36,594 bases of DNA, from NCBI GenBank assembly GCA_943354605.1, contig CALRCK010000007.1, forward strand, positions 2,450 to 39,043, in the 5' to 3' direction. The stretch is from Candidatus Uhrbacteria bacterium (GTDB lineage Bacteria; Patescibacteriota; Patescibacteriia; UBA9934). Of the stretch, positions 15,641 through 35,167 are shown piece by piece (positions within the stretch are counted from its first letter, which is position 1; every line of letters begins with the position of its first letter). The notes under the pieces are model-generated. The model made no database searches and was not told the origin of the DNA. It worked only from the letters and a program-made list of their open reading frames with translations. The position numbers and the translations under genes are program-made.

Positions 15641-17095
15641 ATGGACCACGGGAATGTCATTGTTCGATTCGAAAATGTGTCGTACGCCTACGACGGGGAT
15701 TACCCCATTCTTGACGACGCAAATTTTTCGATTCGCGAGAACAGTAAAATGACCCTGATGGGACAGAATGGTGCGGGGAAGAGCACCATTTTTAAAATGA
15801 TTTTGGGGGAGATCAAACCCGACGCCGGGCAGATCCATATTCAGAAAGGTGCGACCATCGCCATTGGCCGGCAGGTGATGGGCCGTGAGCATCTCACAGA
15901 ATCGGTTCGTGAGTTCTTTGCACACGCGTTTCCAGAAATCACCTACGACCTTGATAAGCGCATTGCCGAGGTACTTGAGGCGGTAAACCTTGTTGCGCCG
16001 CTTGAAAAGATCGTCGGCGAGTTTTCCGGCGGTCAGCAGGCGCGATTGTTGCTTGCGTACGCTTTAATTCAAAATCCAGACATTTTGTTGCTCGACGAGC
16101 CGACGAATAACTTGGATCGCGACGGTATTGATCATCTCACCGGGTTCTTGATGATGTACCCAAAGACGGTGCTCGTCATTTCCCACGATGCGGATTTCTT
16201 AAATGCATTTACGGAAGGCGTGTTGCACCTGGATGTGTATCGTCATCAGACGGACATCTACGTTGGAAATTATTCCGACGTGATTGAGGAAATTGCTGCT
16301 CGTGTTGAACGCGACCGCGCAAAGAACGCGCAGTTGCTCAAAGAAATCCAAGATCGTAAGGACAAGGTGAACTTCTTTGCGAACAAAGGAGGAAAGATGC
16401 GTAAGCTCGCAAGTAAGCTGAAGGATCAAGCCGAAGAAGCGGAGGAGAATATGGTTGAGGTGCGTCGCGATGATCGAACGATTAAAGATTTCACCATTCC
16501 AACGCAGGACTTCATTGAAACCATGGTGACGATGACATCGGTGAAAGTGATCAAGAATCACGAACCGCACGATGCAAAAGTCCATATTAAGCTGCGTCGT
16601 CGTCAGAAACTGCTGGTGTCTGGCACAAACGGCATCGGTAAAAGCACGTTGCTTCGCGCATTGGCCGCAGGAAAGACCGACGGACTCTCCATCGATCCGG
16701 GCGTGAAGGTTGGCTACTACCGCCAAGATTTCTCCGGTCTCGACTTTGAGCAAACCGCGTACGATTCACTTGCATCGGTTATGGAGCTGAAGTCGAACGA
16801 AACGCTGCGTGCGGTCGCATCGCAGTTCTTGCTGACGAGTGCGGTGCTCCAGAATACGGTCGGATCATTGTCTGAGGGACAGAAAGGGCTGCTCTGTTTT
16901 GCGCGATTTGTACTGCAAGCTCCGGGATTGTTGATTCTCGACGAGCCAACAAACCACATTAACTTCCGACATCTTCCAGTCATCGCAAAGGCGATCGATG
17001 AATATCAGGGTTGTGTGATCATGGTAAGCCACGCGCCAGAATTTGTTTCGCAAATTCACTTTACCCAAACGCTCGACATGAGCACGTTGAGTTAA
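15641..17095 (+). CDS. ABC-F family ATPase, first of two
   Basis: 484 aa from ATG 15641. Two ABC ATPase domains sit in one chain without membrane segments. Domain 1 has GQNGAGKST, FSGGQQARLLL and LLLLDEPTNNLD. The linker is a charged helical hairpin (EEIAARVERDRAKNAQLLKE and so on). Domain 2 has SGTNGIGKST, LSEGQKGLLCF and LLILDEPTNHIN. ABC-F proteins bind the ribosomal E site and reset the peptidyl-transferase centre; some confer antibiotic protection. The short linker and absence of a C-terminal coiled coil are closer to EttA/YbiT-like housekeeping forms than to Uup, but assignment within the family is not secure. It follows trhO by 8 nt, so both translation-related genes are probably co-transcribed. 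A strong hairpin follows. Confidence 0.93.
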   Translation: MDHGNVIVRFENVSYAYDGDYPILDDANFSIRENSKMTLMGQNGAGKSTIFKMILGEIKPDAGQIHIQKGATIAIGRQVMGREHLTESVREFFAHAFPEITYDLDKRIAEVLEAVNLVAPLEKIVGEFSGGQQARLLLAYALIQNPDILLLDEPTNNLDRDGIDHLTGFLMMYPKTVLVISHDADFLNAFTEGVLHLDVYRHQTDIYVGNYSDVIEEIAARVERDRAKNAQLLKEIQDRKDKVNFFANKGGKMRKLASKLKDQAEEAEENMVEVRRDDRTIKDFTIPTQDFIETMVTMTSVKVIKNHEPHDAKVHIKLRRRQKLLVSGTNGIGKSTLLRALAAGKTDGLSIDPGVKVGYYRQDFSGLDFEQTAYDSLASVMELKSNETLRAVASQFLLTSAVLQNTVGSLSEGQKGLLCFARFVLQAPGLLILDEPTNHINFRHLPVIAKAIDEYQGCVIMVSHAPEFVSQIHFTQTLDMSTLS

Positions 17096-24394: not shown

Positions 24395-24419
24395 TTCATC
24401 GCTCGTTGGTGGCTCACTC

Positions 24420-24453
24420 AGTCATTCTGAGCGAAGCGAAGAATCTCTCGTAG
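24420..24453. repeat. GTCATTCTGAGCGAAG...AGAATCTCTCG repeat
   Basis: Matches the repeat at 14431-14494 in its AGAATCTCTCGTAGG and ATTCTGA words. The rest of the gap (24454-24628) holds GGTCC/GGACC and CCCCGGAGGGGGCGGGG palindromic pieces and no gene. Confidence 0.55.
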
Positions 24454-24628
24454 GTTAATCGATCCTCTCACTCATCAACGGGTCCTGTCGCCTCGGACCC
24501 CGTTACGGTGCTCAGCTCGCAGGTGAGCGTATCCGGTAATCATCATCGACATTCTGTGCTCGTTGCGCTCCGTACTTGTCCCCGGAGGGGGCGGGGACCT
24601 CCCTCGGCGCCACCCGTTGAATCACTCG

Positions 24629-25024
24629 CTACGCTCGGTCGGTTCCGCTCTGCTTCGGCTTGAAATCGAGCGCCAATGAATTTACGCAATATCGCATTCC
24701 GGTTGGGGCAGGGCCGTCGGGGAACACATGGCCAAGGTGAGCATGGCAGTTTGCGCAAAGAATTTCCGTTCGCGCCATGCCGAGCTCACGATCAGGCTCT
24801 GTTGCGACGTTTGCAGAGTTCGCGGCATCCCAAAAGCTTGGCCAGCCGGTTCCGGAGTCGAATTTTGTCTCCGAACTGAACAATTCATGTCCGCAATTGG
24901 CGCAAACGTACATCCCCGCGTCCGTGGTTTTGTAGTATTTTCCGCTAAATGGCGGCTCGGTGCCTTTTAAGAAACAGACGTTCTTCTGTTCTTCCAAAAG
25001 ATTCGGGTTGAGTTGTTCAGACAT
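24629..25024 (-). CDS. msrB: Peptide methionine-R-sulfoxide reductase MsrB
   Basis: 131 aa from ATG 25024 (an in-frame ATG at 25042 would add six residues). Zinc-binding pairs CANC (in VCANCGHELF) and CANC (in LCANCHAHLGHVF), the FDSGTGWPSF signature and the catalytic Cys in RYCVNSLAL (C113). MsrB reduces methionine-R-sulfoxide in proteins using thioredoxin. The N-terminal resolving Cys of some MsrBs is not evident; KNVCFLKG provides one cysteine that could serve. Soluble, no signal peptide. The tail PKQSGTDRA is short and normal. The gene is divergent from the large RNA. Confidence 0.95.
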   Translation of the reverse strand: MSEQLNPNLLEEQKNVCFLKGTEPPFSGKYYKTTDAGMYVCANCGHELFSSETKFDSGTGWPSFWDAANSANVATEPDRELGMARTEILCANCHAHLGHVFPDGPAPTGMRYCVNSLALDFKPKQSGTDRA

Positions 25025-25149
25025 AGATGTGTTTTGCGACACTTGATCGTAAAATTTTTGATTTCAACATCTGCAGTATATCGAAAACCAAAGATACGGA
25101 GAAAGTGCTCTATTTATTGGGCTTTTTGATCATTATTTGCTCGTTCCAC

Positions 25150-25178
25150 TTGACGAAAGTGGAAATTTGTGGTATGCT
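25150..25178 (+). promoter_or_regulatory. Strong promoter of the large RNA
   Basis: TTGACG (25150-25155), exactly 17 bp, TATGCT (25173-25178). The upstream region is A/T-rich. Expected start is about 25185. The next annotated gene on this strand starts 950 nt later, past a terminator. Confidence 0.75.
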
Positions 25179-25184
25179 AGTTTT

Positions 25185-26037
25185 CGTTACTTCATTTGCC
25201 AGATCGAACCGTGAGGTCTGGTGAAGTTGCCGGGATTCGTCCCGGGATCCTCGAAATCCTCCACGGAGCACAGACAGTCAGCTCCCCACACCGTAAGGTG
25301 GCGTTCCTTGCGAGAGATCGCTAGGAATGAAAGGGGATGTCACGCTACCGGGACAGACCGGAGCGTGTGCGGCCCGCAGAGGGCCGCGGCGAGAAGTCCG
25401 GTTCTGGGCTCTCAGGGCTCCAGCCGGCATAGCCAGGGCGTAGCGCGTTGGACAGGAAGTCCCTCGCAACCCAGGTTGTCGCCTGGAACGTTGGTGAACG
25501 ACACACCTAGGACCGACAAGGCCCGAAAGGGATTCGATCGGCCGAGAGGTGATTCATCAATGGCAACCAAGCCCGAGTTTGTTCCAAAGTGGCCGCAAAC
25601 CACGTGGACAACAAGGCGTTGCCAAGTCACGCGATCACGTTGAGGCGACGAGGGACCGATGAGGTTCTGCCCGTCACCACAACGTAGGACGTGATGTCCG
25701 TGCTCGTGTCTGAGCCTTGCAAGCCGGACCGAGTGAAGCCGAGATCTCTACCCGAGGTCGCGGCAGTGGGAGTGCAACGGAGCACCAGGGTTAGTAGCGT
25801 CCGGCCGGCGCGAACATCGTCACCACACGGGAAAGGCCGGTCGTTTGGCGGAGGTTCGCCTCCGCCAGCGACCGGCCCAGTACCCCAAAAACAGGTTCCG
25901 GCCAATTAGGTAACTGAGGCTGGGTTCGCTCATCCTCATCCGTTGCGATTCCATCGCAACGGCTCACGACGATTTGCTCTTCGGAGCGACTTACTGGCCA
26001 CCTTTCCCCTCGGGGACTGGTGGCCAGCTTGCTTTTT
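25185..26037 (+). ncRNA. Large structured non-coding RNA, about 850 nt, unknown family
   Basis: Bounded by a consensus promoter and a strong terminator, with no protein-like ORF. It is GC-richer than its surroundings and folds locally throughout. Examples: CCGGGA-TTCG-TCCCGG (25230-25245); CACC-GTAA-GGTG (25289-25300); TTCCT-GCGA-GAGA-TCGC-AGGAA (25304-25327); CACGCT/AGCGTG enclosing CCGG/CCGG (25341-25367); GCGGCCC/GGGCCGC (25369-25387); CCAGG/CCTGG (25471-25486); CCC-GAAA-GGG (25522-25531); a long arm TGGCAAC/GTTGCCA (25561-25624) with inner GTGG/CCAC; a 17-bp arm capped by TTCG (25835-25877); and CGTTGCGAT/ATCGCAACG (25941-25961). GNRA and UUCG caps are RNA hallmarks. I could not find RNase P core words, a tmRNA acceptor end or group II domain V. 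Function unknown. Confidence 0.75.
25994..26037 (+). terminator. Intrinsic terminator of the large RNA
   Basis: CTGGCCACC (25994-26002) pairs with GGTGGCCAG (26019-26027), with an inner TCCCC/GGGGA stem; T-run 26033-26037. Confidence 0.88.
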
Positions 26038-26064
26038 GCGTCGATGTATTTTTTCCGGTACCAT
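26036..26064 (+). promoter_or_regulatory. Promoter of proS
   Basis: TTGCGT (26036-26041), 17 bp, TACCAT (26059-26064), directly after the RNA terminator. A start near 26071 would give a leader of about 59 nt containing the three repeats below. Confidence 0.55.
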
Positions 26065-26079
26065 CGGCATATCAGAAAA

Positions 26080-26125
26080 CAAACTAAGTTAGCGACTAAC
26101 TTAGTTTGGGACTAACTTCGTTTGT
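26080..26125 (+). promoter_or_regulatory. proS leader with three CTAACTTAGTTT-type arms
   Basis: Arm 1 AAACTAAGTTAG pairs perfectly with arm 2 CTAACTTAGTTT across a 3-nt loop. Arm 3 CTAACTTCGTTTG can pair with arm 1 instead (one mismatch), and TTTTT lies between arm 3 and the ATG. Two mutually exclusive hairpins suggest attenuation; as DNA the same arms could be a dyad operator. I cannot tell which. Confidence 0.5.
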
Positions 26126-26129
26126 TTTT

Positions 26130-27377
26130 ATGCGCTACTCGAACGTTTTCTCAAAATCTTCGAAATCGGTTCCGTCAGATAGTGATTCTGTCAACGCTCG
26201 GCTTCTTGTTCAGGCCGGATTCGTTGATCAGGAAATGGCTGGCGTGTACACGTGGTTGCCGCTTGGACTTGCTGTTCTCCGCAATATTGAGCAGATCGTG
26301 CGCGAGGAAATGAACGAGCTTGGTGCGAGCGAAATTTTCATGCCATCGCTTCAACCGAAGGAGTATTGGGATACCACGAATCGGTGGGAAGGGGTTGATG
26401 TGTTGTTTAAGCTGAAGTCACAAACGGGAAAGGACTACGCGCTCGGCTGTACGCACGAGGAAGTTGTGACGCCACTCGTGAAAAAGTTTGTGCAGTCGTA
26501 CAAGGATCTTCCATTGGCAACGTATCAAATCAACACGAAGTTCCGCGACGAGCTTCGTGCAAAATCCGGCGTTCTCCGCGGCCGTGAGTTCCGCATGAAG
26601 GACATGTACAGCTTCCACACCACGCAAGAGGACCTTTCCGCGTTTTATCAAAAAGCGCTCAAGGCATACGTTCGCGCCTACAACCGTTGTGGCCTTCAGG
26701 TGAAGGTGGTCCAGGCAAGCGGTGGTGTCTTTACACAAAATCTTTCCCACGAATTCCAGGCGCTGACCGATGCCGGTGAAGACGTGCTTATTGCGTGCGA
26801 TCATTGCGAGTTTGGTGAGAACTCCGAAATCGCAACACACAAGGCAGGCGATCCATGCCCAATGTGCACATCGACGCTTGTTTCAACAAAGGGTATTGAA
26901 GTGGGAAACATCTTCGACCTCGGCACAAAGTATTCCGATGCATTTGAACTCGATTTTACGAACGAAGACGGCAAGCGCCAGCGTGTGTTGATGGGATGCT
27001 ACGGCATTGGCACAAGTCGTTTGGTTGGCGCAATCGTTGAGGCGTCGCACGATGACAAGGGAATGATCTGGCCAAGGAGCGTCGCTCCGGCGCTCGTTCA
27101 TCTTGTGCACATTGGTGAAGACACAGAGTCGATTGAATCGGCAGACGCACTGTACAACGAGCTTCGCGAGGCGGGATTCTCCGTGTTCTACGACGACCGC
27201 GACGCATCGGCTGGCGCAAAGTTTGCCGATGCCGATTTGATGGGGTTGCCAATCCGTCTCACCGTGAGCAAACGCATGCTCGCTGAAAACGTTGTTGAAT
27301 GGAAGGAGCGTACGTCTGAGGAACTCAAGAAGATTCCTCGGTCGGAGGTTCTCGCGGCTGTTCGGGCGGATGCCTAA
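26130..27377 (+). CDS. proS: Prolyl-tRNA synthetase lacking the editing insertion
   Basis: 415 aa from ATG 26130 (MRYSNVFSKSSK). Class II synthetase: GCTHEEVVTPL (about 106), motif 2 FRDELRAKSGVLRGREFRMKD (split here as FRDELRAKSG, about 138, and VLRGREFRMKD), GGVFTQNLSHEF, motif 3 GCYGIGTSRLVGA (about 289), and an anticodon-binding domain (about 320-415). It charges tRNA-Pro. The common bacterial enzyme is about 570 aa and carries a roughly 180-residue INS editing domain; here that place holds only CDHCEFGENSEIA...CPMC (C224, C227 and C244, C247), a possible small zinc knuckle. Post-transfer editing of Ala-tRNA-Pro by this protein is therefore not expected. The stop codon is inside the 20-bp terminator stem. 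Confidence 0.96.
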   Translation: MRYSNVFSKSSKSVPSDSDSVNARLLVQAGFVDQEMAGVYTWLPLGLAVLRNIEQIVREEMNELGASEIFMPSLQPKEYWDTTNRWEGVDVLFKLKSQTGKDYALGCTHEEVVTPLVKKFVQSYKDLPLATYQINTKFRDELRAKSGVLRGREFRMKDMYSFHTTQEDLSAFYQKALKAYVRAYNRCGLQVKVVQASGGVFTQNLSHEFQALTDAGEDVLIACDHCEFGENSEIATHKAGDPCPMCTSTLVSTKGIEVGNIFDLGTKYSDAFELDFTNEDGKRQRVLMGCYGIGTSRLVGAIVEASHDDKGMIWPRSVAPALVHLVHIGEDTESIESADALYNELREAGFSVFYDDRDASAGAKFADADLMGLPIRLTVSKRMLAENVVEWKERTSEELKKIPRSEVLAAVRADA

Positions 27378-27760: not shown

Positions 27761-28066
27761 ATGAGGGATATTAGCCAAAAACTCTATAAAGCCGTGGTTC
27801 TCGTGTGTGAAAACCGGCGGGACGACGGCAGGGAATCCTGCGGCGTTACCGAGCCTGGCCTTCGGGCAGCCATCAAAGAGGCGATGAAAGCCGCCGGGTT
27901 GCCGGTTCGTGTCCTTTCAACGTCGTGCATGGACCATTGCAAAGAGGGTCCGACGGTCGCCTTCATGCCAATGGATGTGATGTTTGGGGATGTTCACATT
28001 GACGATGTGCCTGAGCTTGTGAATAAGATGAGCTCGTACCTGAAGACTAACTTAGTTAGTGATTAA
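27761..28066 (+). CDS. Thioredoxin-like [2Fe-2S] ferredoxin
   Basis: 101 aa from ATG 27761. Four cysteines are spaced C16-x10-C27 and C56-x3-C60 (VLVCENRRDDGRESCG and TSCMDHCKEGP), the pattern of thioredoxin-fold [2Fe-2S] ferredoxins and of NuoE-type domains. VAFMPMDVMFGDVHIDDVPEL completes the fold. It would carry single electrons in the cytoplasm; partners are unknown. I reject a longer start at 27599 because that part is the dispersed element, and the family begins close to KAVVLVC. The leader carrying element copy 2 could regulate it. The aminopeptidase ATG follows 10 nt after its stop, so the two form an operon. Confidence 0.9.
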   Translation: MRDISQKLYKAVVLVCENRRDDGRESCGVTEPGLRAAIKEAMKAAGLPVRVLSTSCMDHCKEGPTVAFMPMDVMFGDVHIDDVPELVNKMSSYLKTNLVSD

Positions 28067-35093: not shown

Positions 35094-35167
35094 TGGACCC
35101 GATGGGATTTGAACCCACACTTCTGCGGATGATAAGCCGAGTAGGCTACCAATTACATCACGGGCCC
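35094..35167 (-). tRNA. tRNA gene with irregular anticodon arm, isotype unclear
   Basis: 74 nt on the minus strand. The acceptor stem GGGCCCG/CGGGTCC pairs along all seven positions (one G-T), the T arm GTGGG-TTCAAAT-CCCAT is normal, the D loop has AATTGGTA, and the discriminator is A; CCA is not encoded. The anticodon arm does not fit: CTCGG faces TCCGC or CCGCAG, leaving an 8-nt loop CTTATCAT and a bulge. TAT or ATC would be the anticodon depending on which T is U33. Its 3' anticodon side (TATCATCCGCAGA) also forms a perfect 13-bp inverted repeat with 35242-35254. A promoter is present. It may be a divergent tRNA, a tRNA damaged by one indel, or a remnant. Confidence 0.65.

Follow-up and report, generated by a model that had tools for sequence, protein, structure and literature searches.

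The stretch between msrB and proS in a Candidatus Uhrbacteria genome (0.94 Mb, 11 contigs) raises the question of whether some 850 nt ahead of proS encode a large structured RNA in this ultra-small freshwater bacterium. Bacterial RNAs this large, other than rRNA or introns, are few. A preliminary description, which rightly took the lineage to be CPR, had proposed a new large RNA class in this lineage and suggested as checks a nucleotide search in relatives, covariation analysis of the homologs and an Infernal search of Rfam; a strong Rfam match, or protein-like substitutions in one frame, would have spoken against the proposal. We followed it up in the 36,594-nucleotide stretch of contig CALRCK010000007.1 that we call the window. 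Coordinates are window positions, and W denotes the RNA of the window genome. The RNA-bearing relatives are the Candidatus Uhrbacteria bins G003 (CAIKHN010000009.1), G004 (CALRHV010000001.1) and G001 (CALRAI010000015.1). The element very probably represents a non-coding RNA family, on the basis of its promoter and terminator, the lack of a conserved ORF, the msrB-proS synteny and a 3'-proximal core. The fuller reading, which we consider the probable one, is a large non-coding RNA that is structured and transcribed on its own. It would be the first of its family to be described, and we infer for it a scaffold mechanism.

The predicted transcription unit between msrB and proS

The locus is arranged as follows.

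24629-25042, minus strand: msrB (SelR domain), the 5' flank of the RNA element
25144-25164, no strand assigned: inverted repeat TTCCACTT-GACGA-AAGTGGAA overlapping the -35 element, a candidate operator
25150-25178, plus strand: RNA promoter TTGACG-17-TATGCT with extended TG, kept in G001 and G004 as well
25185 to about 26037, plus strand: predicted large structured RNA of about 850 nt with inferred ends (fold z -6.6, syntenic homologs)
25994-26027, plus strand: 3' terminal hairpin CUGGCCACC..GGUGGCCAG followed by CTTGCTTTTT, a terminator whose G003 counterpart was flagged as such
26035-26064, plus strand: proS promoter TTTGCG-18-TACCAT, kept in each of the five genus members
26130-27377, plus strand: proS, the 3' flank of the RNA element

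The near-consensus promoter of the preliminary description is present, and its letters TTGACNAAAGTG-N8-TGNTATGCT are kept ahead of the orthologous RNA in G001 and G004, with 80-88% promoter identity between species. It is the sole promoter-like site in a scan of 24400-26300; since shuffles yield 0.8 such sites by chance, the count alone is not significant. The inverted repeat over the -35 element has a shorter form in G004 (CCACTTGACCAAAGTGG) and only one half in G001, and could serve as an operator. At the 3' end, the terminator reported earlier as strong does consist of a strong hairpin; its U run is interrupted and the terminator scan flagged the close G003 counterpart, not this one, so that "strong" was slightly overstated. 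A promoter and a terminator of the RNA were found in all four RNA-bearing species. Read from its sequence, the element is a stand-alone unit with a dedicated promoter and terminator.

The promoter form TTGACNAAAGTG-N8-TGNTATNNT is common to unrelated genes across the family (G019:C3:17428-17456, G005:C5:44681-44709 and others) and is apparently a lineage-typical strong promoter. A match in G019 (C3:17427) was discarded as a homolog, as it has only the promoter in common and an unrelated protein gene downstream.

Several other features of the window were recorded. The sequence AACTAAGTTAGCGACTAACTTAGTTTGGGACTAACTTCGTTTG is repeated threefold at 26080-26127, in the interval from the proS promoter to the start codon, and GACTAACTTAGTTAG near 28045 is a piece related to this repeat. 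From an ABC-ATPase gene to msrB, the intergenic sequence at 24560-24680 is repetitive and includes TCGTTGCGCTCCG and CGCTACGCTCGGTCGG elements; similar elements occur beside msrB in the genus member G002 (L042 1900-2060). A tRNA at 35094-35167 (minus strand) matches its Rfam model at 41 bits and was missed by ARAGORN; its anticodon arm appears unusual.

Homologs and the conserved core

The suggested nucleotide search, carried out on 193 related genomes, returned homologs as patches in three genus-mates. Reading the msrB-proS gap in five species of the genus placed the RNA unit in four of them (W, G001, G003 and G004). The gap of the fifth, G002, contains sequence without the RNA, which this species lost or never had; the RNA is therefore not essential across the genus. 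Estimates of the distance from promoter to terminator are about 850 nt (W), 740 nt (G004), 980 nt (G003, with two cores) and 665 nt (G001). The msrB genes of these species are 76-82% identical in DNA, yet outside the patches the RNA cannot be aligned, so the conserved patches are likely to be under selection. Further patches are kept between W and G004: CCCAGGUUGUCGCCUGGAA(C)GUUGGUGAACGACAC (34/35 letters), GAUUCAUCAAUGGC and AGCCUUGCAAGC.

The patches common to the family centre on a core near the 3' end.

25766-25877, plus strand: core of about 110 nt comprising P1, P2, P3 and P4 (model R1, covariation)
25766-25769 / 25823-25826, plus strand: P1, GUGG/CCAC, enclosing P2 and P3
25772-25785, plus strand: P2, GUGC-AACGGA-GCAC, with loop (A)AACGGA
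25790-25818, plus strand: P3, a hairpin with an AGUA/GAA internal loop and variable letters
25835-25877, plus strand: P4, a long hairpin with two-sided pair changes

P1 enclosing P2 and P3, followed by P4, folds in all four species and in a second G003 core when P1 and P2 are enforced; when the five core units are folded freely, P1 and P2 form in three and P4 in all five. The single-stranded loops are nearly invariant while the pairs change on both sides. A U-A pair of P2 becomes C-G in G001 and in the second G003 core with the loop retaining ACGGA, and the changes in P4 include C-G to U-A. P3 is constant in position as a hairpin and completely different in its letters between species; its AGUA/GAA internal loop, common to W and G004, may resemble the loop-E (bulged-G) motif.

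A model of the core (R1) matches the RNA in four of the five genus members at E 1e-19 to 1e-22, scores that follow by construction because the same four sequences built the model. The second G003 core is an independent find: it scores 22.9 bits (E 0.005-0.034), and its helices again run in the order P1-P2-P3-P4. In G003 the two diverged cores stand in tandem (L009 1905-2028 and 2280-2385), possibly separated by an internal terminator. R1 found no member in other genera, the search covering 23 family genomes, 73 genomes from the order and a sample of 381 from the class; the 23 chance pattern matches drawn from bacterial genomes and one viral contig yielded none either. Core-motif pattern scans of genomes and viral contigs gave three Uhrbacteria loci that pass the model, the rest being at chance level, and phage and plasmid records contained no match to the RNA. 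Minus-strand matches on the P4 hairpin were dismissed as mirror artefacts, and the gap ahead of proS in genus g3 (G006, G015) was rejected as a homolog, its structure coming from tRNA genes. The RNA family has so far been seen in one Candidatus Uhrbacteria genus only.

Covariation was assessed on a sequence-only alignment of the core (A2), in which 94.8% of the pair cells are standard pairs, compared to 27-53% with the partners slid by 1-3 columns. Two-sided changes occur in 4 of the 24 named pairs (0-1 when slid), and RNAalifold reported 7 pairs changed on both sides. Of 500 column-wise shuffles, 14 attained a covariation score as high as that observed. The covariation is modest, because only four or five sequences are at hand, and we regard the core covariation among four sequences as supportive, not conclusive. 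The longer W/G004 alignment (about 440 nt) has a consensus energy z of -4.1, attained by none of 200 shuffles, and an unexceptional number of compensatory pairs (21, compared to 14 +/- 3.6). Helices aligned by hand between W and G004 show 26 two-sided pair changes; a few of these ignore bulges and the count is illustrative only. A hand-made five-row core alignment (z -13 to -17) was set aside as evidence, being fitted to the structure and carrying an extra G in the G001 row, and a first MAFFT alignment that included the second G003 core was misaligned and discarded.

Predicted fold

The RNA folds at a minimum free energy of -396.5, compared to -338.7 +/- 8.7 for 60 dinucleotide shuffles (z -6.6; -6.45 with 20 shuffles and -4.7 with 15). 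The homologs give z values of -6.2, -7.8 and -7.3. Other 850-nt windows of the contig lie mostly between -1.7 and +1.4, and the exceptional low-z windows, at 17001, 27201 and 34001, are those with hairpin terminators. The antisense strand reaches an equally low energy and so the strand cannot be read from folding energy alone; the promoter, the terminator, the AGUA/GAA loop and the GNRA loops favour the plus strand. All four types of hairpin cap listed in the preliminary description were located: GTAA (25293), GAGA (25313), GAAA (25513-25541) and UUCG (25856; 25980). Upstream of the core, the following helices are predicted.

25273-25341, plus strand: helix UCCCC/GGGGA around hairpins CACC-GUAA-GGUG (25289-25300) and GUUCCU..GAGA..AGGAAU (25303-25328); hand alignment gives a similar architecture in G004 (UCCUC/GAGGA)
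25445-25467, plus strand: hairpin GCG..GGAC-AGGAA-GUCC..CGC, with outer pairs UGA/UCA in G004
25471-25503, plus strand: block kept in G004 (34/35 letters, 97% identity) with hairpin CCAGG-UUGUCG-CCUGG
25490-25561, plus strand: helix GUUGGUGAA (25490-25498) / UUCAUCAAU (25553-25561) around the GAAA-capped hairpin 25513-25541
25562-25623, plus strand: stem GGCAAC/GUUGCC around hairpin GUGG-CCGCAAA-CCAC, its loop kept in G004
25708-25729, plus strand: hairpin GUCUG-AGCCUUGCAAGC-CGGAC, loop kept and stem altered in G004
25738-25764, plus strand: hairpin GCCG.GAUCUC-UACCC-GAGGUC.CGGC directly 5' of the core, with counterpart stems in G004 and G001

The loop UUGUCG (25476) may pair with CGACA (25499-25503) as a pseudoknot. 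The stem of the GAAA-capped hairpin shows two-sided changes in G004. The loop of hairpin 25708-25729 includes the 8-nt palindrome CUUGCAAG. This loop was considered as a kissing contact and dropped, as the palindrome spans 8 nt in W and G004, only 4 nt by eye in G003 and G001, and is not significant.

Candidate functions and their alternatives

The large size, the conserved loops on changing stems, the caps, the loop-E-like motif, the pseudoknot and the palindrome, as far as they can be predicted, point to a function in tertiary shape. The RNA would be a stable molecule working through its three-dimensional form, a scaffold that associates with itself or binds protein in the manner of OLE, ROOL and GOLLD. 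It would act neither via an encoded peptide nor through cis control of proS or pairing with conserved targets. The core loops would provide the contact points, namely (A)AACGGA, the AGUA/GAA internal loop and the upstream palindromic loop, and the fast-diverging 5' domain and the 3' tail would be peripheral. We put forward this scaffold or self-assembly mechanism tentatively, at somewhat less than an even chance, and favour it over a trans-acting regulator because of the anatomy and the GOLLD-like layout.

A trans-acting regulatory RNA, whether a 6S-like polymerase decoy, a sponge for RNA or protein or a base-pairing regulator, would fit a stand-alone unit with a near-consensus promoter and exposed loops that hardly vary, (A)AACGGA among them. 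However, in size and ornateness the RNA far exceeds the usual base-pairing regulator, the complement UCCGU is not kept across all four RNAs, and Rfam returned no 6S match, making this reading unlikely, if still the second choice.

The size, GNRA loops, long-range helices and loop-E-like AGUA/GAA element would also suit a ribozyme, or a decayed relative of the group II intron, RNase P, GOLLD, ROOL or OLE, and large RNAs diverge quickly. Searches of Rfam with cmscan argue against this. In the window, nothing relevant appeared at the gathering threshold or at E up to 10, where microRNA-type and other chance matches were the only ones. The three homologs matched none of these families up to E 2. 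The RNase P RNA gene (G000:C1:166217-166642, 95 bits) and the tmRNA gene (G000:C2:94533-94931, 90 bits) lie elsewhere in the genome, away from the RNA element, which excludes the element as either. Since the element moreover occupies a fixed chromosomal site that is neither a phage nor a tRNA array, we consider this alternative improbable. With no relevant Rfam match, homologs in four of five genus members and covariation in the core, the proposal of a new large RNA class in this lineage has held.

The known RNAs closest in kind are compared on this footing. With GOLLD, ROOL and OLE the element shares large size and elaborate conserved secondary structure. GOLLD and ROOL are encoded by phages or prophages, often near tRNA islands, whereas the element here keeps its msrB-proS locus in four species and its one viral-contig match is at chance level. 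In GOLLD, conservation is higher in the 3' region than in the 5' region (PMC12286853). The RNA here is likewise ornate, stand-alone, above 800 nt, 3'-conserved and 5'-variable, but it does not match the GOLLD model and is chromosomal at a fixed site without phage or plasmid match. It resembles ROOL as a large, stand-alone RNA without an associated protein gene, with many hairpins and possible pseudoknots, and differs in being unmatched by Rfam, free of phage or prophage association and devoid of search-detectable common sequence or structure. In OLE, palindromic loops kiss between two copies (PMC12286853). OLE is similarly a large stand-alone bacterial RNA, but belongs to another lineage, its Rfam model is unmatched, and the palindromic loop CUUGCAAG here is only suggestive. 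The raiA motif and HEARO RNAs, compact structured bacterial RNAs of unknown function or protein-bound, are smaller and unmatched by Rfam, and no IsrB-like protein gene was noted beside the RNA here.

In four species the RNA immediately precedes proS and shares its strand, a position that could suggest a very long 5' leader of the riboswitch or T-box-like type. Against this, the terminator is followed by a separate proS promoter, its -35 overlapping or directly following the terminator tail, which is conserved in five species (TTTGCG/TTTGGA-18-TAC(C/T)AT), including G002 without the RNA. In G004 the RNA is present beside an unrelated ProS of 477 aa, only 25-26% identical, over short stretches, to the ProS of relatives, and in G001 the terminator and proS are separated by sequence accommodating a further ORF of about 110 aa. 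Rfam gave no T-box or riboswitch match. The separate promoter and the non-orthologous ProS of G004 do not agree with a cis-leader that shares the transcript of its gene and is retained with it, making a leader highly improbable, in keeping with the preliminary description. The G004 gene (L008 225-1658) appears as a non-orthologous ProS replacement at the same locus that retains the conserved proS promoter. Two gaps read in other genera contain tRNA genes and a small ORF ahead of proS.

Slightly less credible still is a non-functional, hairpin-rich spacer decaying at a mutation-prone site: the rapid divergence outside the patches, the absence from G002 and the hairpin-rich nearby intergenic stretches fit it, but promoter and core letters are 72-97% identical while the intervening stretches are unalignable, pairs are maintained through two-sided changes, and promoter and terminator recur in four species. 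That the region encodes a small or an antisense protein is barely conceivable: a 140-aa frame with a GTG start does exist (25221-25643), but the ORFs of the region match no Pfam family above cut-off (DUF7542, at E 0.004, lies below it), similarity to the homologs is spread over all six frames with frame-shifting indels instead of showing a protein-like pattern in one, and the core is conserved as paired structure.

Returning to the scaffold reading, we consider doubtful its furthest-reaching form, in which a CPR bacterium with a reduced genome has a new chromosomal, vertically inherited class of ornate RNA that builds multimers of RNA alone, independent of any phage. The occurrence of a large RNA at a fixed site in a genome of less than one million bases suggests that large ornate RNAs also exist beyond phages and Gram-positive bacteria. 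The speed at which this RNA diverges, leaving only about 110 nt recognisable between species within a genus, shows how such families escape Rfam.
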